From Liolophura sinensis (taxonomy: Eukaryota; Mollusca; Polyplacophora; Chitonida; Chitonidae), in NCBI RefSeq assembly GCF_032854445.1, contig NC_088302.1:18347338-18411337 (forward strand): a stretch of 64,000 nt of DNA. Reading direction: 5' to 3'. Below the pieces are notes generated by a model. That model worked only from the letters and a program-made list of their open reading frames with translations, was not told the origin of the DNA and did no database searches. Shown here one piece after another: positions 6,427 through 63,462 of the stretch. Position numbers and translations under genes: made by a program. How positions within the stretch are numbered: the stretch's first letter is position 1; every line of letters starts with the position of its first letter.

Positions 6427-7044
6427 TACCGGCCCGGATAGCACAGTTGGTAGAGCGTCCGCTTCGGGACCGGTAGATCCAGGATCAATCCTTGGTCGAG
6501 TCACACCTAAGACTTTAAAAGAGGAAGTTGTAACTTCCTCGCTTGGCGTTCAGCATGAAGGGGATAGTGCAACGACTGGTTGACCCGTATCAGTATAATG
6601 GCTCGGGCGGGGCGGCTTACTTGCCTTCGGTAAGTCGTCTCAGTGATGCAGCACTAAATAAAAGAGCGGTGGAGTGAGTGAGTGCTTGGGGTTTAACGTC
6701 GTACTCAACAATTTTTCAGTCATATGACGACGAAGGAATCATTAGGGTGCATGCACGTGTAATGTGCCTCCTTGTTGCAGGACGGATTTCCACCGCTCTT
6801 TTATTTAGTGCTGCATCACTGAGACGACTTACCGAAGGCAAGTAAGCCGCCCCGCCCGAGCCATTATACTGATACGGGTCAACCAGTCGTTGCACTATCC
6901 CCTTCATGCTGAAAAGAGCGGTGGAAATCCGTCCTGCAACAAGGAGGCACATTACACGTGCATGCACCCTAATGATTCCTTCGTCGTCATATGACTGAAA
7001 AATTGTTGAGTACGACGTTAAACCCCAAGCACTCACTCACTCAC
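6427..7044 (+). mobile_element. Foldback SINE (CACTCACTCA-tail family), direct-inverted-direct
   Basis: A tRNA-derived head (6431-6500) carries an A box in GGATAGCACAGTTGGTAGAG and a weak B box. The normal body runs to 6673. It is followed by an inverted copy (6674-6913) and then a direct 3' half with the CACTCACTCAC tail (6914-7044). Segment 6549-6673 is the exact reverse complement of 6789-6913 (125 bp), and 6674-6800 of 6914-7040 (127 bp). The whole is flanked by the 12-bp target duplication TCATGATATTCC (6415-6426 and 7045-7056). Open frames inside are not genes. Confidence 0.9.
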
Positions 7045-22515: not shown

Positions 22516-23036
22516 TGATATTATAACACAGTGCAAACTGATATTACAATACAGTGCAAACTGATATCACAACACAGTGCAAACTGATATTATAACACAG
22601 TGCAAACTGATATTATAATACAGTGCAAACTGATATTACAACACAGTGTAAACTGCCGACTGATATCATACAGTGCAAACTGCAAACTGATGTTATAACA
22701 CAGTGCAAACTGATATTATAACACAGTGCAAACTGATATTATAACACAGTGCAAACTTATATTACAACACAATGCAAACTGATATTACAACACGGTGCAA
22801 ACTAATATTATGACAGCACAAACTGATACTATAACACAGTGCAAACTGATATTATAACACAGTGCAAACTTATATTACAACACAATGCAAACTGATATTA
22901 CAACACGGTGCAAACTAATATTATGACAGCACAAACTGATACTATAACACAGTGCAAAATGATACTATAACACAGTGCAAACTGATATTACAACACAGTG
23001 CAAACTGATATTATAACACAGTGCAAACTGATATTC
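22516..23036 (+). repeat. 23-bp satellite, about 22 copies
   Basis: The unit is near GATATTATAACACAGTGCAA plus ACT. Some units are shortened. A block of about 113 bp starting GCAAACTTATATTACAACAC occurs at 22751 and again at 22864, a higher-order step. Confidence 0.9.
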
Positions 23037-23295
23037 AACACTGAAAAATCAAGGACTTTCAAGGATACTTCCCAAAATAAACTCTCTTCAAAGATCTGAA
23101 AACCATTCAACAAAATCAAGTACTTGGATTCCAAGCTCATACATAAGCTCTACATGGAATGGAAATGGGGGCCAAAGCATAAAGTCAAACAAACAGTCAA
23201 ACAAGCCATCTCAAATAGATTTGTGGAAGTCTTTGAATTGTATGTTTAATTCCCAAGAAATTTTCAAATAAATCATTCCCATATTGAATTTATTC

Positions 23296-45280: not shown

Positions 45281-47034
45281 GTAAATTTGCCTATTCGTCT
45301 GTCTTATGTACATGTCTTATGTACAAATTCAATTCAGATTTTATTGGTACTAATACTAGTTTCTAATGACTCAGTTAAAGGTATACAAGGTGTACAGGTA
45401 AATGTTTGGTGTAGCTTAGTCTATACAGTACGTCGATCATCCCACAGTTATTCAGCGCAACACCAGCGTATATACCTGGGTATTTTAAATATACGTTTAC
45501 TGAACTTGCACTTGTTGACACTTCTATAATTAACAATGTCTAGAATTGTATTTGTAGAGAACACACTAAAGTTATCTAACATGTATACACAAGGCTTATG
45601 CCTCTTTCCATTGGCATCTTTAAATAGGATGTGTAAAACACTGTGTTGATGGGAATGTCACGGAATATCGTACGCTTTCCATTGCAATGTACCGTGTATA
45701 TGAATCGAAGTTTCACCTTTATAAATTACCTAACAGTTAATAGTTGACATCAGGTTATCCACGTGCACAGCCTGATGCGGGTCAGCTGGATGTACGTCTA
45801 GATGTAGGGTGGTTCAAATAGGTATATTATAATGTCAGATCAAGTGTTTATATAATTACTGTCTTCATTGTCTTTTCTGGCTAATTTTTGCACGTATAAA
45901 CTTACATGGTTATCGGTCGAATAAAATGTTATTTGCTGTTGACATTTGCTTAAATATGTTCAATATGACCTGTTCAGATGAAACTTGATAAAAGGGAAGT
46001 AACTCGCCTGCGAAGCGAATTAGAAGCTGCCACGGATCGTCGTCAAGATGCTGAAGAAAAATTGAGACAGAATAAGTCTCTTCTCGAGGAGGTAGAATTA
46101 GTATACACTGGCAATCTTTCGCAGCCAATCGTTCTTCAGCTTCTGGGTATCTGCTTGATTCAACCCACAACACGTTATTGGTTGATGGTGATATAGATGT
46201 CATGAGTTCGAAACCAGCCTCTGGCTTTTTACATTTTCTTTGCCACTACTCTTTACATGGATTCTTATAACTTTCATCTTGTCTTACCGTTCCTTCGGTC
46301 TTGTTGTTCTCTGTGAGGTTTGACTTATGTTTTACTAGACAATTACTGGTGTAGAATTCCAAAATACCATAGTCCAAAACAAAAGACTTTTATAGAGGTT
46401 TAAAGCTCTATGAAACCCTTGGTGGCGTTCTTCGTTCAACCAAACCTAGCCATATTTTGAACGGTGCCTGAATCAATAGACTTGACTAAAAACGATAGTT
46501 CCAGGCAGTGTCATTGACATTCTTTATCCTTGTCTATGTTGGTTTGTCAGCATGCATCTCGTTTTCCACCGTCCATCCACAAGTATGCATGCATTATTAC
46601 TGCAGGTGAAAATGCCTTTTTCTTAATGTTTCTATCTACCTATATCTGTTTCCCTTCATCCTGAGTATTTTTGGTGAACTACATGCAGGAACGAAAGTTA
46701 ATTCTAGTCCTGCTGATATTGCAAGCCTTAATTTTGTGTGTTTTAAAATCCTGCCCGTGGATTTATGTCAACTTCAGTTTGATAGCTTCTTTTAAATGTA
46801 TCATCTGATCCATCGAAAAACAAACACAAATTTTTTTCTTGTCATAGATTCCTGTCATATTGCCCATGAACATTATAGTGATCCACTGACTGTTTGTCAG
46901 TCCACTGGCCTCTTAATGCAAACCTTTATACCAGAGAAGTTTTGGCAGTTTGACGTTAGACACAAGCGTACGTTATAAGGTAAACCTAACATCTGAATGA
47001 ATGAAACATATAAATGTTACGTCTAAACATGCCC

Positions 47035-47083
<49 letters not shown>

Positions 47084-49885
47084 CGTTTCTTCATTTGTTC
47101 AGATGCAGACCCAGCTAGAGAATGCTGATCGACACAAAGAACGTATAGAGAATCAGTCATCTGAATTAAACGGTAAGATTACCATGAGCAAGCTAAAATA
47201 GTTCATCGTCATTTACTGCAATGTTGTATTTGTCTGCAGCCAGCGTCGATTGCTTACTGGTGAGCCTTGACAAGGACAAAATACTGTCATGGCATCCTCA
47301 AGGCATTTTCCTTTTTTTCTCGTGCGTAATGATCCCAACGATGTACATCATCTTAAAATCCAATTAAGTGCACAAAAGAAAAGTCTTTAAAGGAATAGGC
47401 TTCAAAAAATCGAAGAAGGCATTACTAAATAAACCACTTAAAACTATGCATAAATATACTTTCATTTACTTTTTTTTTAGAATTTTGTGGAAAGAGTTAA
47501 AGGCGCTCGAACATTTGAATTCTAAGATGGGCTTTATGGATCATACTATCACAGGTTAGGAACGCTGTCGTCACAGGAAATTTATCCCTGTCTAATCACG
47601 ACACTGAATGTTGGAATAACTCTTTTTTTACCCCTAAGTAAAATATTACTGAAATAGTGTTACCAGAAATTACTTTATTCTGGTGAACATAAGGGAAAAA
47701 AAGGTGATGTGACTCAGATTTCCTAAATACCGTCAGTATGGTTCATAAAGCCCACCATGGTATTCAAATATTTGAATGCCTTTTAACACTCTTTTAAAAA
47801 AAGACCTGAAAAAATAAATGAAAGTATTTTTACTCATAGTTTTCGGTTTTCTGTACGATGAACCTTACTTCATGTTTTAGCTTTCTGTTACTTGAAAGCC
47901 TCATTATGATGACTGTCACTGAACGGCAAACACAGGTTCGAACAGAAATGCGGCAAGTTTGATCTGAAACGCGTACGTCACACTAGTTTCAATGTGACCA
48001 TATACAGTAAGGTTTGGCACCGACTCGTGTTGGCCGTCTGCTCTACCTCTTTGCTTGAGAAGTATAGAAGTACACTCTGTTTTGCCCCTTGACATTTCAG
48101 TGGCGGTTTCTCTACCCTTCACAAAAGGTCATTTCAGTTGACAATCCAGCTCTATCGAGGTCTTTTCTTACTTGGGCAGGTACAGAGAAAACCAGCTGCC
48201 CTAGTCGTCTGATCCATCTGATGGCCTTGATCTATACTTATCTGTTCCTCTGTAGTAACCACGGATACATACTGACTATCTGTCAAGTTTTTTTTCTCAG
48301 GTGTTCACACAGGTGTGTTAGTAAACCCTACACCTGAACAGGTATGTCGAGTAATGATGTTGCTCATCTACAATCAGGAACTCTGGAAAACTGACCCCTG
48401 CAAAAACGTAATATCGCATGGCTTAGAGAAAAAACGGGGTCATGTGCCCTGTGATCAAGCTGTACGTGGCGTCGCGTGTCTTTCGTTGACGTAATGCACG
48501 CACCACCTAAATCCGAGTAGGCTAATGTCGTTCTAAAATTTGTCAAATCCGACAGAGCACATCCTTCATCTATCACTGTGTCAGCCTTATGTCATTCCTT
48601 ACACGTACCACAACCTAACGTCACAGTTTGGTTAGACTGTTTTGATTTCTTGGGGTTTAACAGTTCATTAATACAGGAGGAGGTTTCCATGAAACAGACG
48701 GGTACCAGTGTCGACATATGATAGCTGCCTTGCTGGAATGTTATGTCGAAGACTCCAGGCATGACACGACCCACCAAACACAATAAAGGGACGCTATACC
48801 GACCTTCACCTATACTCCCAGGAACAAGACCCTCATATAGAACTCTTAAAGGTTATTTTTGTGCAAGGCCATATGGAACCGTTTTTGGTTCCCAATATAA
48901 ACCATTCAGATGGATCCCTTAAAGAACCCCCTTTCCGTAGACGTTTTGAAACTAACCCTGTCGTTATCAGGGCATTGTAGATATGTTTGAAATTATTTTC
49001 TGTGATAGTCGGTGGTCAAAGGATAAGACAATATAAATGTATTTCAAAGTTATGCACCAACAAATGTTTACAAACTTAGAACCAAAATAGTACAAAGGGC
49101 CTGCGTGGCCGAGGGGGTTAGCACGTCAGCGCGACGTATTGACCCAGGAGCCTCTCACCAATGCGGTTGCTGTGAGTTCAAGTCCAACTCATGCAGACCT
49201 TCCCTCCCTGGCCGTATGAGGGAAGGTCTGTCAGCAACCTGCGGATGGTCGTGGGTTTCCCCCGGGCTCTGCCCTGTTTACTATCATCATAATGATGGCC
49301 GCCGTCGTATCAGTGATATATTCTTGGGTACGGCGTAAAACACCAATCAAATAAATGAGTAAATGAAATAGCAGAATATGACAATTCTGTATTTGATGTG
49401 TTGGTCGAGACTTTAGGACGTCGGCATCTAGCGCCAAATACCCCGAGTTAGATCCAATTCTTTATGATTGGCAATCTTGGTATGTGTTTATATACCAGAT
49501 GTTGGGATCTGTTGAAAACATAGACTTAACGTAAGTGTGACGCTTGGTGTTTTAATTCAATATGGCGTTTTAGTGATGCAGCACTGTAAAGACGTTGACG
49601 TTGAGGCCTGTCTGTTAAACTTATTTGGGGTGATGACAAAAAATAAACGAAGGGTCATTCTTTGTTTTTTCAGACTCTCTTGAAGATTCAAACCGAGAGA
49701 AAATTCGGCTGACACAGGAGCTGGAGAGAGCAACCGAAGAGCTGGAAAAGTTGAGGAGAGATCTCCTGCGATCTGAGGAAGAAAAGGAACGAATCAGTTC
49801 CGACTTGGACAAAGCAAAGTACGAGAATACCAAAATGAAACAGGAAATGGATGCGGCAGCGAATGAAATGATTAGCAATTATTAA
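45167..49885 (+). CDS. Gene A: small tropomyosin-like coiled-coil protein (4 coding exons, ~169 aa)
   Basis: Coding exons are 45167-45280, 45978-46091, 47103-47172 and 49674-49885, all with GT-AG introns (697, 1011 and 2501 bp) in phases 0, 0 and 1. The joined product is about 169 aa, almost entirely charged heptad-type coiled coil, with no signal peptide or membrane segment. Residues 1-8 (MEGIKKKM) and the 38-codon first exon resemble the N-terminus and exon 1a of animal tropomyosins (family knowledge). Residues 39-76 repeat the pattern of 1-38. The start ATG has A at -3 and G at +4. The protein is much shorter than the usual 284-aa tropomyosin and ends ...NEMISNY. An actin-binding or filament role is inference only; a myosin-rod-like coiled coil is the alternative. 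The exon structure is well supported by phase and splice sites, but untranslated exons and isoforms cannot be seen. Confidence 0.78.
45978..46091 (+). CDS. Gene A coding exon 2 (relative of exon 1)
   Basis: The acceptor is TTCAG at 45973-45977 and the donor GTAGAA at 46092. It has 38 codons, phase 0/0, starting MKLDKREVTRLRSELEAA and ending SLLEE. It aligns without gaps to exon 1, with 17 of 38 residues identical, including the run AEEKLR and the first Met. This indicates duplication of a first exon. Confidence 0.8.
47038..47081 (+). repeat. (TA)n next to the gene A exon 3 acceptor
   Basis: About 20 TA units ending about 20 bp before the acceptor at 47102, in the branch-point and pyrimidine-tract zone. 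Confidence 0.9.
47103..47172 (+). CDS. Gene A coding exon 3 (70 nt, phase 0 to 1)
   Basis: The acceptor is TTTGTTCAG, directly after a (TA)n tract, and the donor is GTAAGA at 47173. It encodes MQTQLENADRHKER followed by IENQSSELN plus one base that completes Asp with the next exon. Length and phases match gene B's exon at 56222-56291, and 8 of 23 residues are identical. Confidence 0.78.
49098..49363 (+). mobile_element. CAAATAAA SINE, full length, in gene A intron 3
   Basis: The head is GGGCCTGCGTGGCCGAGG, the B-box region GTGAGTTCAAGTCCAACTC, and it ends ACACCAATCAAATAAATGAG. Same strand as gene A, about 310 bp before the terminal exon. No clear target duplication. Confidence 0.83.
49674..49885 (+). 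CDS. Gene A terminal coding exon
   Basis: The acceptor is TTTGTTTTTTCAG. The two leading bases complete Asp, followed by SLEDSNREKIRLTQELER and continuing in coiled coil to ISNY and TAA at 49883-49885. The first 41 residues align without gaps to the start of gene B's terminal exon, with 15 identities, including RxEEExExI. It is far shorter than gene B's 268-codon terminal exon. Confidence 0.82.
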
Positions 49886-52689: not shown

Positions 52690-52818
52690 ATGGATTTCGC
52701 GGATTTCGAGGACGTGAAGAACAAAATTGTGAAATTGAAGTATGATTTGGACGTGACAAAAGGGGAGAATTACGAACTCCAAGATGCACTCAAAAAGACC
52801 AACATGAAGGCGGACGAG
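52690..52818 (+). CDS. Gene B coding exon 1
   Basis: It has 43 codons, from MDFADFEDVKNKIVKLK to TNMKADE, with donor GTAGGT at 52819, phase 0. It is closely related to gene C exon 1 (about 20 of 40 aligned residues identical, sharing DVKNK and ELQD). Confidence 0.8.
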
Positions 52819-55800
52819 GTAGGTTTTCAGTTACAGCGTTTATAAATAGACGAATGAGCCTGTCAAGCTAACTTATTGAAGGCTGTTTCCTCTATACCAA
52901 GCAGCCTCGGAACAAGCCAAGAAAATTGTGCTTGTCAGCAAGAACTGAAATAATAATAAAAGCAAAAAACTTTACCACATTTAAATAGTTTTGTATTTCG
53001 TCATGCCAATAAAACAACTGATTTTACAAGAAACAGAAGAAAAGCTCACCTGCCAAAAGTAACATAATCTTTGTATGCGAAGCATGAAAGAAATAAATAA
53101 CCTTGATACACGGCGTTCATATGCTACTATTAATTTTTAAAATTCGAGTATTTCACAATGCAGTCGAATTAAGTAGTTGATTTCACAGGATTCCAATTAC
53201 AAAGGCCACCACACAAGTTTCATGTAAAATGTATAAGTATAATCAAAGAATTAACTTGCATTACATATTTTGCATTTTCTCTCTCTTACTGAGTAGTACT
53301 TCTCTTAGTTCCCACCCCCAACCGGGACCCCCATTTGAGGTAATGCCAAGAAGTCCTTGGTCAAACCAGGGCTTGATCTAGCGAATGAATCATGGCACAT
53401 TCATGCCATGAAGACAAGAATACGTAATAGTTTAGGAAAGTGTCAGATAAGCCGGTAGATGCCAATGCCTTTATTACCCAGGCCTCATGTCAGGCATGTA
53501 TACGTGTGGATTTTATAAGGGTGTATGGCCGCTTCTGACATGAACATCTGGTGCATATTAAAACCTTTGTAAAGACATGCCACACATGCTGGGTCTAGTG
53601 ATGGGTAAATGACAGCAATAATTTATTAGATTAATCGGTCAAACCAATATTCACCAAGCAGGGCCCACATTTATCAAACATCTTAAAACCTAGGTGAAAA
53701 ATTCAAACACAGCACCAATAAAAGTGTTTTAAAAGTTACCTTCGGGGAGGGGTGGGGGGTGGGCTACTTGGCTGAGGGGATTAGCAAGCCAGCGCGGCGC
53801 AATGACCGAGGAGCTTCTCACCAATGCAGTCGCTGTGAGTTCAGGTCCAGCTAATGCTGGTTTCCTCTCCGGCAGTACGTGGAAAGATCTCCCAGCAACT
53901 TGTGGATGGTAGTGGGTTTCACGCGGGCTCTGCCTTGGAATATTCTCGAGTACGGCGTAAAACACCAGTCAAATATATAAATAAATCTATCTACGCTTAC
54001 CATTTAATTGAGCACACGTAAAAAACACCATAAACTAACCAATTAACAAAAAAAAAGAAAGTAAAGATTCACTGTCAATATTGACCCAGACCCTGACCTT
54101 ATTCTAATGCGTTCTTGTGTTTCCTCTTATAAACGAAAATACAAACCTTCGTTATGCTTATATTGTTGTTTGTTCTCTTGTAGATCTGGACGTGTGCTTG
54201 TTCTTGTTTGTTCTCTTGTAGACTGAGAGAGAACTGGACGTGTGCTGTCCACTTGTCCTTGTTTGCTCTCTTGTAGACTGGGCGAGAACTGGACGTGTGC
54301 TGTCCTCTTGTTCTTGTTTGTTCTCTTGTAGTCTGGGAGAGATCTAGACGTGATCTGGAGTGATCTGGAGAGATCTTGTGTGTTCTCTTGTAGACTGGAA
54401 GAGAACTGGGCGTGTGCTGTCCCCTTGTTCTTGTTTGAACTCTTGTAGACTGAGAGAGAACTGGACGTGTGCTGTCTCTTTGATCTTGTTTGTTCTCTTG
54501 TAGACAGAGGACCCTATCGCTTAGCATATATGTTTTCTTTGTTTATTATCGTGTGGATCTAGATCTTGACGTTTGTTGTGTTCATATTCTTTTCTTCTTT
54601 GTTTTATTGAGGACTAAGAGAGATCCTGAAATTCCTTAAGATTATCTTATTATCTTTATGCTCTTGTTTGTTTTCGTATAGCCCAGACCCTGGCGTTCGT
54701 TTTGCCTCCATTCATATCTGCGTGTTTTAATTTGTTCTCTTATATATTGGGATCCTGAGGTTGTTGGGTTTTTTTTTTTTCGTCGTCTTGTAGATTGTTC
54801 TGTTGTAGACTGAGAGGGATCCTGAAATTCTTTAAGAATATCTTTTTATCTTTATGCTCTTGTTTGTTTTCTTGTAGCCCAGACCCTGGCGTTCGTTTTG
54901 TCTCCATTCATATCTGCGTGTTTTAATTTGTTCTCTTATATACTGGGATCCTGAGGCTGAGAGATCCTGGCTTTGACACTGGCTTTGCTTATATTCTTAT
55001 TTGCATGTTCTGATTTGTTCTCTTATAGAGCGAGATAATGACGTTGAATGTGGTTATGTTCTTGTTTGTTCCCTTGTAGATTGAGAGAGATCCTGACGTT
55101 CGTGTTGTTTATATTCTTATTTTTGTATGTTCTTGTCTTCGTTCCTGTTCTTATTTACCGATATCCTGATGCATACACCTTACAACCTATCCGTCGCTCT
55201 CTAAGCTCGCTATACATCACTATCACCACGAGACAAGCTTGATCTTTGGAGCCTGCTTGACGTACGTGGGTTTGCTTAGGCTTAGCCTCACCACTGAACT
55301 ACTTAATCAGCATCAATAAAATCGTTTCATTTGTTGGTTGTAATCATCGTGGGAATACCTTAGATAAAGAGAATGTGTATGTATGATTATAACCAAAGGA
55401 TGAGACAGAGTTTTAGCGGTTTCTGTCATCACTTCCTACAATGTGAGCCCACTGACCTAGTCGTTGTTCAAGATTTCTGTACAAAATTTTCTAGTGATGG
55501 CAGTACTGTAGAGAGTGTAGAGAGCATACAGAGCGGTGCATGCGCTGATGGGAGTGTGATCTTGATCCTGTAGACTTGAAGAGATACTGACGTTTGTTAT
55601 GCTTATGTTTTGATTTGACCTCGCGTAGACTGAGACCTTGACGTTCGTTGTATTTATGTTGTTGTTTGTTCTCCTGTAGATTTGGATACCTTGTCGTTTG
55701 TTATGCCTCTCTTCAAATATATTCTCTTCTAGGCCGAGACCCTGACGTTGTTTGTGCATATGTTCTCCTGTCGACATGGAGAGATCCTGACGTTTGTTAT

Positions 55801-56691
55801 GCCTCTGTTTTGATATGTTTTCTCGTAGACCGAGATCCTGACTTAGGTAGCGCATATGTTCTTGTTTGTTCTCTTCTAGACCGAGATCCTGACGTTGGCC
55901 ACGTTTTGTTCTCTTGTTGTATGAGTTCCTGGCGTATGTTGTAGTTTTGTTTATTTCTGTAGACCCAGGTCCTGTTTCTTGTTTATCTTATGATCTCATA
56001 GACCCTAAAGTTTGTTGTGCTTGCATTAGTTCTTTGTTCTCTTGAGGATTGAGATACTGACGTTTGTTGTGCCTATGTTCTTTGTTTATTCTCTTATAGA
56101 CCCAGATGAACACATTTGTTTTTTTTATGCTATGTTCTCTTATCTTGTAAACTGACCTTGAGATCCTTATGTTGTTACCCTCATATTTCTTAAACTTCCA
56201 TTCTTGTTTGTCCCATTGTAGACCGAGGTCAAGTTTGAAAACACAGAGAGAGCAAAGGAATGGCTGGCGCACCAGATGAACGAGCTGAAAGGTAAGCGAG
56301 TGATTGCATACTGTTGTGTGCTTTAAATGATGTCGATAAATAGTCTTATTCACCTACGAAAAATCGAAACTGACAATGGCCGAGGATTGCTGTTAATGTT
56401 TTATTTCTCACATGGTCCCAATATTATGAATCTACTGAATCCAGTGATTAGTCCGTGATTGTTGATGTCTGTCAACATGAATTTTTTGCAAAATTATTTA
56501 ATTTACACATGTTCAATATCTAAGAAGCAAATCCTGGTCTAAAGCTTGATTTCGACTTAAATGAATTTCACACATTATATATTTAGAACTCGATTAAAAA
56601 TAATGTCATAATGTGGTAATACTTGGAGACGATTTGTGTTGATGTATTATATTGGCGAGATAACCACATGACGTAATTTACAACGGGTATT

Positions 56692-56722
<31 letters not shown>

Positions 56723-57621
56723 TTTTACTGATGCGACCGAGACCAGCATTATGGTGGGAGGAAATTGGGCAGAGCCTGTGTGTGTGTGGGGGGGGGGGGG
56801 GGCATCACCATCCGCAGGTTGCTGCAGACCTTCTCACATTACTGTTTATACACGCATAAACATGTACATACAATAATGTGATTTATCTCGGTTCTTGGAT
56901 GACCTCTTGGATGACCAATCGGATCGCTGTGGGAAGCACAATGATATCGGATAATATATACCATAAAATACATCTTCCAGCAACCTGCGAATGGTTCTGG
57001 GTTTCTCCCACGCTCTACCTGGTTTCCTCCTACCATAATGCTGACCGCCGTCGTATAAGTGAAATGTTCTTGGGTATGACGTAAAACAGAAATAAAATAA
57101 ATAAATATAAAATACATTTGAGATGTGCATCATGGGTGTCCAGTAAGATCATGCCTGTAGAACACCCAGGTAAAACTACGGAGAAATACTTAGGCAAAAT
57201 GTCATGAATAAATATACATGTCATCAGATCTTGCGTGGTTTAAAGTCCAGACGGAAGCTGTACACATGAACAGAACGAACATTTTTGAGGGGCGAAAAAA
57301 TAATACAATGGCGAATATCGAATAGGTAGTTGTTGGTGGAGAAGAACTCTTCAGTGTAGGGTAATAAATTTACATACGCTTAGGCAATTTATATGCGATA
57401 CTGAATTTATTTGATCTTCAAGCAAGAACGCTAGGAAGTTAATTAAGTTTCTTTTCATTCAGATTCAACTCATGTTAACATCATGTTAACACCGCCGATT
57501 TGATATTAAGAAAGACGACTAACTTGTGCCTACATTATTCGCGCTTGAATCCATGTGAATTCGCTTTATGTGGGGCATATTTGAAAACTTGATTAGTGGT
57601 GATGGTTTATGTTAAAACTTT

Positions 57622-57652
<31 letters not shown>

Positions 57653-58748
57653 CATCGCGAGATTCTCATGAATGTCCACCTTAGCGAATAAACGCGCTCG
57701 TGGCGTTACGAGCACGTAACTACCATGGCAACGAGATACCCCCAGTAGTTCATAACATGGTTATTAACCACGGTAGTAATTACGTGAACGTAATTACTAC
57801 CGTAGCCACGGTATACCATTGCCATGGATTGTCAAGGCAAAGTACACCTACATCGCTTGTTGCAGTGATAATTAAGTGCTCGTAACGATGGAGATACTTA
57901 TATAAAAGTGTTCAAAAATAAACGTTTTCATTCTGTCATCAGATGGCATGGACATCTTGAAGAGCGATCGGGTGAAGCTGGGGGACTGGCTAGAACAAAC
58001 CAAGGAGGAGAACGAACGGCTGGCCTCCAAACTGGCGCGTACGGAAGAGGAACTAGAAAACATTAAAGATGCAAACAGCGAGCTGAACAGTCAACTGGCG
58101 GACATGAAGGCGACTAAAGAGGCAAATGAAACTCTGACCCGGGAATTGAACCGCTTGAGGGACGAGAAAGATCGAATGGCGGACGAACTTGAACAAACCG
58201 GGTTGCTGTCCAGAAATCAGAAGATGGAACTGGACCGCCAGAACGACGAAGTAGCCAGAGCCAGACGACAGTTGGATGAATCTCTGAACGAAAGGAATCG
58301 TCTGTGGGCCAGGTTGGAAGCCGGTACGAACGAGAGCTTTTCAGAGAGAGAAGAGATGGAGAAAATGAAAGACGAGAACGAACGACTGCTGAAAAGTATC
58401 GACATGATCACGGACAGCTACGAGCAGGCCAAAGAGACGGCGGACTCCCAGTTCAGAGAGTTGCGGACCCTGCGAGAAAACATGGCCGACTATGAAAATT
58501 TCCAGAGGCAGTTTGAGACGCTGAAGATCGACCACAGCACCGCTACGGACGATCTGGAGGCTGCGAATCGCCAGCTGATGATGACCAAGCAGGAAGTGGA
58601 GACGCTGCGCGCTGATAACTTGAAGCTGACGAGAGAAAACGACCAGCTGAAGGAAGACAATGAGCTGTTATGGAGCAGGCTGCAGCAGTCTCAGTCCGAC
58701 AAAGATCGCGTGATGAGCGAGATTGCGCGAGAATTGGCGGGATTGTAA
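52690..58748 (+). CDS. Gene B: long coiled-coil protein, paralogue of gene A (3 coding exons, ~334 aa)
   Basis: Coding exons are 52690-52818 (43 codons, phase 0), 56222-56291 (70 nt, phase 0 to 1) and 57943-58748. The product is about 334 aa, hydrophilic, rich in E, K, R, D, Q and L, and heptad-patterned from near residue 5 to the end, with few prolines or cysteines, so it should be a long parallel coiled coil. It has no signal peptide or membrane segment. The start ATG has A at -3 and G at +4. Gene B lacks the equivalent of gene A exon 2. By analogy, low-molecular-weight tropomyosins start from exon 1b (about 43 codons) in place of exons 1a and 2, but the C-terminal 260 residues lack tropomyosin sequences I recognise. 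Myosin-rod or filament-type coiled coil is equally possible. Intron 1 (3.4 kb) holds a SINE and the acceptor-like tandem array; a missed small exon there cannot be excluded. Confidence 0.78.
53756..53987 (+). mobile_element. CAAATAAA SINE, near full length, in gene B intron 1
   Basis: The head is GGGCTACTTGGCTGAGGGG, the B-box region GTGAGTTCAGGTCCAGC, and it ends ACACCAGTCAAATATATAAA. About 40 bp of the 3' body are missing (GCTCTGCCTTGGAATATTCTC joins directly). Confidence 0.8.
54150..55170 (+). repeat. Tandem array of 3' splice-site-like units, first block
   Basis: Degenerate direct repeats of about 55 bp. Each has a pyrimidine tract like TTGTTTGTTCTCTTGTAG, then ACTGAG or a variant, then GAACTGGACGTGTGCTGT or GATCCTGACGTT. 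TAG ends fall at 54183, 54221, 54276, 54331, 54393, 54448 and 54503 (spacing mostly 55), then at 54681, 54793, 54808, 54877, 55028 and 55079. The unit resembles the real acceptor at 56203-56227. No GT donor follows the units in frame, so they are not exons. Confidence 0.8.
54608..54958 (+). repeat. Higher-order duplication (196-bp offset) inside the acceptor array
   Basis: Sequence from 54612 to about 54762 recurs at 54808 to 54958 with only a few differences. Both carry CCTGAAATTC, CCCAGACCCTGGCGTTCG and TTCATATCTGCGTGTTT in order. It is a recent local duplication of several units. Confidence 0.8.
55171..55559. other. Unique sequence interrupting the acceptor array
   Basis: No repeat units or recognisable exon. 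It could be an insertion or a diverged stretch. Confidence 0.4.
55560..56221 (+). repeat. Tandem array of 3' splice-site-like units, second block
   Basis: It continues the repeat after a gap of unrelated sequence (55171-55559). TAG ends fall at 55573, 55628, 55679, 55732, 55828, 55879, 55962, 56001 and 56099; other copies have lost the AG. The last unit is the real acceptor, TAG at 56219-56221. Units in this block carry ACCGAGATCCTGACGTT, closest to the true exon start ACCGAG. Confidence 0.8.
56222..56291 (+). CDS. Gene B coding exon 2 (70 nt, phase 0 to 1)
   Basis: The acceptor is TTGTTTGTCCCATTGTAG ending at 56221 and the donor GTAAGC at 56292. It encodes TEVKFENTERAKEW followed by LAHQMNELK plus one base. 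It matches gene A exon 3 in length and phase. The acceptor and the first exon bases ACCGAG are repeated many times in the intron just upstream. Confidence 0.8.
56690..56838 (-). mobile_element. CAAATAAA SINE, 5'-truncated, in gene B intron 2
   Basis: On the plus strand a (TTTA)n tail, CAGCATTATGGTGGGAGG, a GTGTGTG and poly-G tract inside the body, then CCATCCGCAGGTTGCTGC. It lies about 135 bp from a copy in the opposite orientation. Confidence 0.78.
56974..57106 (+). mobile_element. CAAATAAA SINE, 5'-truncated, in gene B intron 2
   Basis: It starts at CCAGCAACCTGCGAATGG and ends AATAAAATAAATAAAT. It is flanked by ATAAAATACAT (56963-56973 and 57107-57117). Confidence 0.82.
57627..57652 (+). 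repeat. Poly-T tract in gene B intron 2
   Basis: About 26 T in a row, about 290 bp before the terminal exon. Confidence 0.85.
57704..57887. mobile_element. Nested palindrome, probable foldback MITE, in gene B intron 2
   Basis: Three inverted pairs are nested. The outer pair is CGTTACGAGCAC (57704-57715) with GTGCTCGTAACG (57876-57887). The middle pair is CCATGGCAA (57723-57731) with TTGCCATGG (57819-57827). The centre is a perfect 15-bp pair with a 2-bp gap (57771-57785 and 57788-57802). It ends 55 bp before the terminal exon. Confidence 0.7.
57943..58748 (+). CDS. Gene B terminal coding exon
   Basis: The acceptor is CATTCTGTCATCAG. The first two bases complete Asp, then G-M-D-I-L-K-S-D-R-V-K-L. 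About 268 codons are open to TAA at 58746-58748, the longest open frame in the window, with clear coding bias (G/C in third positions, unlike the AT-rich flanks). The last residues are IARELAGL. Coiled-coil heptads run throughout. The short frames on the other strand here are shadows. Confidence 0.9.
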
Positions 58749-61278: not shown

Positions 61279-61439
61279 TTTATTTATTTGATTTATTTGA
61301 TTGGTGTTTTACGCCGTATTCAAGAATATTTCACTTATGAGACGGCGGCCAACATTATAGTGAGAGGAAACCTGGCAGAGCCCGGGGGAAATCCACGACC
61401 ATCCCCAGCTTGCTGTCAGACCTTCTCATGTACGTCCGG
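61279..61439 (-). mobile_element. CAAATAAA SINE, 5'-truncated, with 11-bp target duplication
   Basis: Plus-strand ATTTGATTGGTGTTTTACGC through TTCTCATGTACGTCCGG. It is flanked by TCCTGATAATT (61268-61278 and 61440-61450). Confidence 0.86.
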
Positions 61440-61985: not shown

Positions 61986-62091
61986 CTATTTATTTGATAG
62001 GTGTTTTACGCCGTACTCAAGAATATTTCACTTATACGACAGCTGCCAGCATTATGCTGGGAGGAAACCAAGCAGAGCCCTGGGAGAACCC
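61986..62091 (-). mobile_element. CAAATAAA SINE, strongly 5'-truncated
   Basis: Plus-strand GGTGTTTTACGCCGTACTC, CCAGCATTATGCTGGGAGG, ending near GGGAGAACCCA. No clear target duplication. Confidence 0.78.
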
Positions 62092-63309: not shown

Positions 63310-63462
63310 ATGTCGGCTGCACAGGGTCCGAATTACGCTATGGAAAGCTGGGACGACGTGAAGAACAAAGTGGTGAAAATCAAATCGGACCTAGAAGCGA
63401 CGAAAGATGAGAAATTCGAGTTACAAGACGAACTAAAGACGGTACGGGGACAGGCGGAGCAG
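63310..63462 (+). CDS. Gene C: first coding exon of a third paralogue (runs off the window)
   Basis: It has 51 codons, starting MSAAQGPNYAMESWDD and ending VRGQAEQ, with donor GTGAGA at 63463, phase 0. From its second Met (codon 11) it aligns with gene B exon 1 (DVKNKVVKIKSDLEATK against DVKNKIVKLKYDLDVTK). The start has A at -3. It carries an extra 10-residue leader compared with gene B. Further exons lie beyond 64000; by analogy a 70-nt phase 0-to-1 exon should follow. It is predicted to be a coiled-coil protein of unknown function. Confidence 0.78.

Follow-up and report, generated by a model that had tools for sequence, protein, structure and literature searches.

The 3' part of intron 1 of gene B, in the window analysed here (the whole stretch of DNA, 64,000 nucleotides long), carries a degenerate tandem array of units resembling the intron's own 3' splice site, and this array is probably an old mirage-type minisatellite that is passive and bypassed by exon definition. 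A segment of about 50 bp, running from the end of intron 1 into the first 6-9 bp of exon 2, was, as the homology shows, tandemly duplicated; the copies would then have spread, undergone partial homogenisation through slippage or unequal exchange, and degenerated, a course suggested by the 55-bp block and the 196-bp repeat described below. The copy joined to the exon would have been kept under coding and splicing constraint as the working acceptor, to which the reading frame points. Exon definition would lead the spliceosome to this last acceptor, since a good 5' splice site lies 70 nt away from it, and use of an array copy would produce a stop-containing extension, probably followed by nonsense-mediated decay. 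Judged from the sequence, the gene most likely tolerates the array without making use of it.

Gene B, its relatives and the array in intron 1

Gene B comprises three exons which, as modelled at the same coordinates in the first-pass annotation, join in frame; exons 1, 2 and 3 together form a single open frame that encodes a coiled-coil protein with no internal stop, and it is this open frame that indicates splicing at 56222, the start of exon 2. The exons of gene B and of its upstream paralog, gene A, are as follows (slashes mark splice junctions):

52690-52818, + strand: gene B exon 1, starting with ATG, 43 codons, ending in phase 0, with donor GAG/GTAGGT
56222-56291, + strand: gene B exon 2, 70 nt, starting with ACCGAG, with donor AAG/GTAAGC
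57943-58748, + strand: gene B exon 3, including the stop codon
45167-45280, 45978-46091 and 47103-47172, + strand: exons of gene A
47103-47172, + strand: the 70-nt exon of gene A, in the same phase as gene B exon 2, with an ordinary acceptor and no array

The two 70-nt exons encode the peptides MQTQLENADRHKERIENQSSELN (gene A) and TEVKFENTERAKEWLAHQMNELK (gene B exon 2), and their correspondence is drawn from their shared length and phase and from where they sit in their genes, besides a tblastn match that by itself is weak (E 4.8). At least three related tropomyosin-like coiled-coil genes lie in tandem on the + strand between 45167 and 63462, and a third first exon, at 63310-63462, encodes a peptide that matches that of gene B exon 1 in both directions (E 5.5e-9 and 3.4e-8). 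Exons 1 and 2 of gene A, 114 nt each, are mutually similar (tblastn E 1.8e-6). The Pfam search gave below-cut-off matches only, including a tropomyosin match of 40 residues overlapping gene A exon 1 (19.7 bits, cut-off 38.6), and a PDB search with gene B exon 3 returned nothing at E 0.01. The genes appear to be those of an animal.

The array was delineated by a profile HMM built from 13 seed units and refined over three iterations on the + strand of 54101-56150, a span that excludes the real acceptor. This yielded 31 matches at E <=10, of which the 30 at E <=1 were kept, several of them partial or weak (as at 56126-56143, E 0.15). TRF returned five overlapping rows, with periods of 10, 31, 55 and 117 in the 5' block and of 51 in the 3' part (55781-55896). 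Together, these tandem-repeat analyses, which the first-pass annotation had proposed, establish that the array is real and holds nearly thirty copies, with the unit consensus ATCCTTATGTTCTTGTTTGTTCTCTTGTAG followed by ACTGGGAGAGATCCTGACGTTTGTT. Its parts are:

54111-56143, + strand: the degenerate tandem array in the 3' part of gene B intron 1, 30 kept profile matches, period about 50-55 bp
54193-54516, + strand: the most uniform block, at the 5' end of the array, with units of about 55 bp (TRF: 5.5 copies, 78% matches, 54197-54505)
54590-54972, + strand: a two-copy higher-order repeat with a spacing of 196 bp, visible in the unit pairs 54682/54878 and 54743/54939
about 55180-55560 (about 380 bp), + strand: a stretch within the array in which the profile recognised no units
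56145-56156, + strand: the unit remnant closest to the real acceptor, read by eye as TTGTAA/ACTGAC, a single case in which the AG has been lost

Both unit pairs of the 196-bp repeat are 94% identical by an end-gap-free comparison, which inflates identity. No inverted repeats were found around the unit-free stretch (55080-55640), and a blastn search with the array as query returned, from the remainder of the 64-kb window, just two short matches (E 0.11 and 0.39) and no convincing related repeat.

Within the array, 46 YAGs precede the real acceptor, 21 of which were picked by eye as unit acceptors, and five more units have no YAG at the expected place; the earlier observation that many units keep a tract plus AG is thus borne out. 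The repeating unit proposed alongside it, a pyrimidine tract followed by TAG and ACYGAG, stands as the pattern of the array, with TAGACYGAG present six times there (the real acceptor excluded) and nowhere in the rest of the window. It does not stand to the letter: the array holds just 6 exact copies of ACYGAG, compared with 27 outside it in the window, and the hexamer is degenerate in most units.

The presumed working acceptor as a member of the array

The relationship between the array and the splice site that gene B apparently uses was assessed at the following feature:

56201-56221, + strand: the real 3' splice site in front of gene B exon 2 (TTCTTGTTTGTCCCATTGTAG), placed in the array family by held-out HMM

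With 54100-56150 masked and both strands of the window scanned, the held-out real acceptor (56221/56222) was the top profile match outside the array (15.5 bits, E 3.2e-4), and the runner-up on either strand reached 1.8 bits. Leave-one-out scores of the 30 array matches ranged from 1.2 to 47.3 bits, with 5 of the 30 at or below 15.5. An ungapped matrix built from the 21 units with a YAG, compared with 20,000 Markov nulls of array composition, gave the real site a score of 29.4 from -21 to +6 (tract, TAG and hexamer), close to the unit mean of 30.2 and reached by 0 of the 20,000 nulls. Taken piecewise, the tract alone was equalled by 4 nulls, the exon 2 hexamer alone by 11, the first nine exon bases by 10 and exon bases +7 to +16 by 1,973, each out of 20,000. 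Moreover, the exon-side score was not reached at any of the other 1,699 + strand YAG sites, 118 of which follow a pyrimidine-rich tract. Unit homology thus spans the tract, the TAG and the first 6-9 exon bases and then fades.

The first-pass annotation had claimed that the units include exon bases, and the hexamer and joint nulls uphold it; generic tract likeness with a chance ACYGAG match, which it had named as the outcome that would undo the idea, is not what the held-out comparison of 15.5 with 1.8 bits returned. Chance or generic likeness of a pyrimidine-rich minisatellite to an ordinary acceptor could draw on the tract and AG common to every acceptor, on the few places with an exact ACYGAG and on the unmatched exon bases beyond +6. 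Against the distance between the held-out acceptor and the next match, and nulls that so rarely equal the hexamer and never the joint score, such a coincidence is very improbable. A copy of exon 2 itself within the array was also considered and rejected, local alignment giving a 10-base match only, with 35 of 300 shuffles as good; this exact match, CCAGATGAAC, lies between the last full unit (56102-56111) and the interior of exon 2 (56272-56281) and is not significant.

As to which came first, the first-pass annotation had left two alternatives, and amplification of an old acceptor is favoured over an array that supplied the acceptor, because gene A has a same-phase 70-nt exon (47103-47172) without an array. 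The equal length and phase of that exon suggest that the acceptor position predates the array, a direction of origin that depends on one paralog whose exon match is, by sequence alone, weak. The reverse order, in which a local minisatellite arose first and then supplied or replaced the exon 2 acceptor, would agree with the placement of the real acceptor within the array family and with unit sequence past the hexamer that is well conserved among units and absent from the exon. It is nevertheless unlikely, since the gene A exon implies that an acceptor was probably present already and replacement would be an extra event, and since no second copy of the repeat lies in the window. Likeness of the units to the real acceptor follows no single gradient along the array: units nearer the 3' end agree with it more closely over the first 3 exon bases (rho 0.56, p 0.008), those nearer the 5' end over the tract (rho -0.65, p 0.001), and neither the first 6 (rho 0.28, p 0.22) nor the first 9 exon bases (rho 0.40, p 0.07) show a significant trend. 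These mixed gradients count against a simple origin story.

Splicing signals in the array and the probable choice of the last acceptor

Splice-site strength was scored with a simple matrix rather than with a fitted tool. By this measure, 15 YAGs in the 2.07 kb of the array match or exceed the real acceptor, compared with 29 across the other 61.7 kb of the + strand and 21 over the entire - strand, so that some use of array acceptors is plausible. Exon 1 joined to each unit acceptor runs into a stop before the exon 2 donor in 21 of 21 cases. Tandem alternative acceptors that give protein isoforms keep the frame, and the array does not; alternative exon ends at the protein level, one of the roles suggested in the first-pass annotation, therefore find no support.

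The donor side separates the real exon from the array. Inside the array, the highest-scoring donor-like site reaches 3.3, within the unit-free stretch, and the next -0.1, compared with 7.0 for the donor of exon 2 and 5.2 for that of exon 1 under the same simple matrix. As the array offers no comparable donor, its units would not be readily definable as exons, unlike the acceptor that stands 70 nt from a good donor, and this contrast is the reason for which the last acceptor would be chosen. The locus offers a natural experiment on how one acceptor comes to be selected by the spliceosome among many near-copies, in which many array sites equal or exceed the real one by a simple matrix, yet the open frame comes from the copy beside the good donor.

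A recursive, ratchet-type splicing region, also suggested at first pass, would be compatible with serial acceptors inside one intron and with two YAG/GT places in the array that are not unit acceptors, namely TAG/GTAGCG at 55844 and CAG/GTCCTG at 55966. An acceptor followed at once by a donor, as such splicing would need, is found at 0 of the 21 unit acceptors (AG/GT), and the donors at the two other places are poor, that at 55847 scoring -0.7 and that at 55969 falling outside the 12 best, i.e. at -1.6 or lower on the simple matrix. With an intron of only 3.4 kb in addition, this reading is extremely unlikely and the suggestion is not sustained.

A further possibility is that the array acts as a functional decoy or kinetic delay, its many U2AF/SF1 or PTB-like sites slowing or regulating the removal of intron 1, in which case regulated retention or decay-coupled use of the upstream acceptors would be expected. 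The density of high-scoring YAGs given above is in its favour, as are the stop-containing products of all 21 unit acceptors and the frequency of TCTT, which reaches 26 per kb in the array, as opposed to 5 elsewhere in the window and 12.5 once the array is mono-shuffled; dense motifs, however, follow from the repetition of a tract. Column conservation, whose mean of 0.83 was taken over columns with 20 or more units, is 0.93, 0.79 and 0.86 for the three TAG positions, 0.86 on average for the tract and 0.80 for the exon side. The AG columns thus have no preferential conservation, and selection on the AG is not evident. Together with the lack of AG/GT at the unit acceptors, the lack of a good donor in the units and the premature stops, this leaves nothing that would point to selection for a decoy or a ratchet.

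Predicted RNA accessibility bears on the same question. For tract and AG, respectively, it is 0.55 and 0.38 in the 21 units, 0.56 and 0.39 in 118 tract-preceded control YAGs and 0.49 and 0.56 at the real site, so that array and controls are equal, which argues against a decoy. Past the AG, the next 10 bases have a lower mean predicted accessibility in the array (0.37; 0.28 in the first seven units) than in the controls (0.50, s.d. 0.15), with 0.43 at the real site, a difference that would suit one. A hairpin predicted for the 55-bp units pairs GTTCTCTT with GAGAGAAC and leaves the AG in the loop (-9.1 kcal/mol), and the predicted tract accessibility of the first seven units is lower, at 0.47. 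General masking of the units by hairpins was rejected, tract and AG accessibility being the same as in the controls; masking confined to the 5' block is possible on these folding predictions.

The branch-point motif YTNAY is present in the AG-free zone of 10 of the 21 units and of 36 of the 118 controls. Of the acceptors in the two genes, that of gene B exon 2 and both of gene A have it, and that of gene B exon 3 lacks it. Its absence from 11 of the 21 units is uninformative, because 82 of the 118 controls and the real exon 3 acceptor also lack it. Altogether, the indirect signs for a decoy or slow-splicing role are mostly negative, and such a role is unlikely. The broader combination, in which dozens of U2AF/PTB-type sites ahead of the sole exon-defined acceptor would make the array a functioning multivalent decoy that times intron 1 removal or sends a share of transcripts to decay, and in which boundary minisatellites would extend beyond cephalochordates, is given slightly less credence still.

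Comparable boundary repeats and other features of the window

The passive minisatellite favoured here has its closest published counterparts in amphioxus, where tandemly copied intron-exon boundaries received the name mirages in Adh3 and were also found in globin genes (PMC3087553). The globin cases are BflGb6 and BflGb9 (PMC3087553, PMC3902484), and lancelet PGBD5 and troponin C are further examples (PMC3902484). BflGb6 repeats the 3' end of an intron together with the start of an exon, with many but not all repeats keeping splice signals, and the Adh3 data and globin RT-PCR suggest, according to the authors, that regular splicing is undisturbed (PMC3087553).

Amphioxus mirages are minisatellite-like boundary copies, as is the gene B array; BflGb6 likewise repeats an intron 3' end with the 5' part of an exon, and the copies in PGBD5 are imperfect, as are the gene B units. 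The array differs in having about 30 degenerate units, whereas the two BflGb6 haplotypes have 6 and 3, and in a unit length of about 50-55 bp, compared with 150-160 bp there and the 10-72 bp reported for Adh3. Furthermore, cluster boundaries are described in the amphioxus paper as left out of homogenisation, whereas the gene B array, in which internal homogenisation is seen in one haplotype, is most uniform at its 5' edge. Given that its unit spans the intron-exon boundary, that the authentic boundary belongs to the array and that many, not all, units keep AG splice signals, the gene B array is best filed as a long, degenerate member of the mirage type. Among the matches listed from the open-licence literature, no boundary array outside amphioxus was noticed; should the present genome not be that of an amphioxus, the array would be a hint that boundary minisatellites occur beyond that lineage as well.

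A two-copy analogue is provided by human CBS 844ins68, in which the intron 7/exon 8 junction is duplicated and the distal copy is strongly favoured (PMC2630376; the sites are termed 'splice donor sites' in the paper), in line with the choice of the last acceptor proposed for gene B. As in gene B, a junction has been duplicated, and the favoured CBS copy is the distal one, beside the rest of the exon; unlike the gene B array, it is one 68-bp duplication and a human polymorphism. Intron change or gain through tandem repeats at exon-intron boundaries has also been described (PMC2812944). Here too, duplication across a boundary makes extra splice signals, whereas in gene B no new intron or exon is apparent and the array is intronic except for its last copy. 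Another study is reportedly concerned with intron change or gain by boundary tandem repeats.

Elsewhere in the window, Rfam gave one borderline tRNA match (6432-6503), and ARAGORN found no tRNA. A large 23-bp minisatellite occupies 22516-23041, with a higher-order period of 113 bp and no acceptor-like unit seen on one read-through. A SINE-like repeat, recognised by eye in both orientations at 53753-53975, 56738-56865, 56977-57100, 61290-61430 and 62000-62090, has a core like GTTTTACGCCGTA..CAAGAATATTTCACTTAT, and we take it to resemble repeats of molluscs and allies. In intron 2 of gene B, a palindrome-like, MITE-like stretch was noted by eye at 57700-57830, with repeated CCATGG and TAATTACGT.
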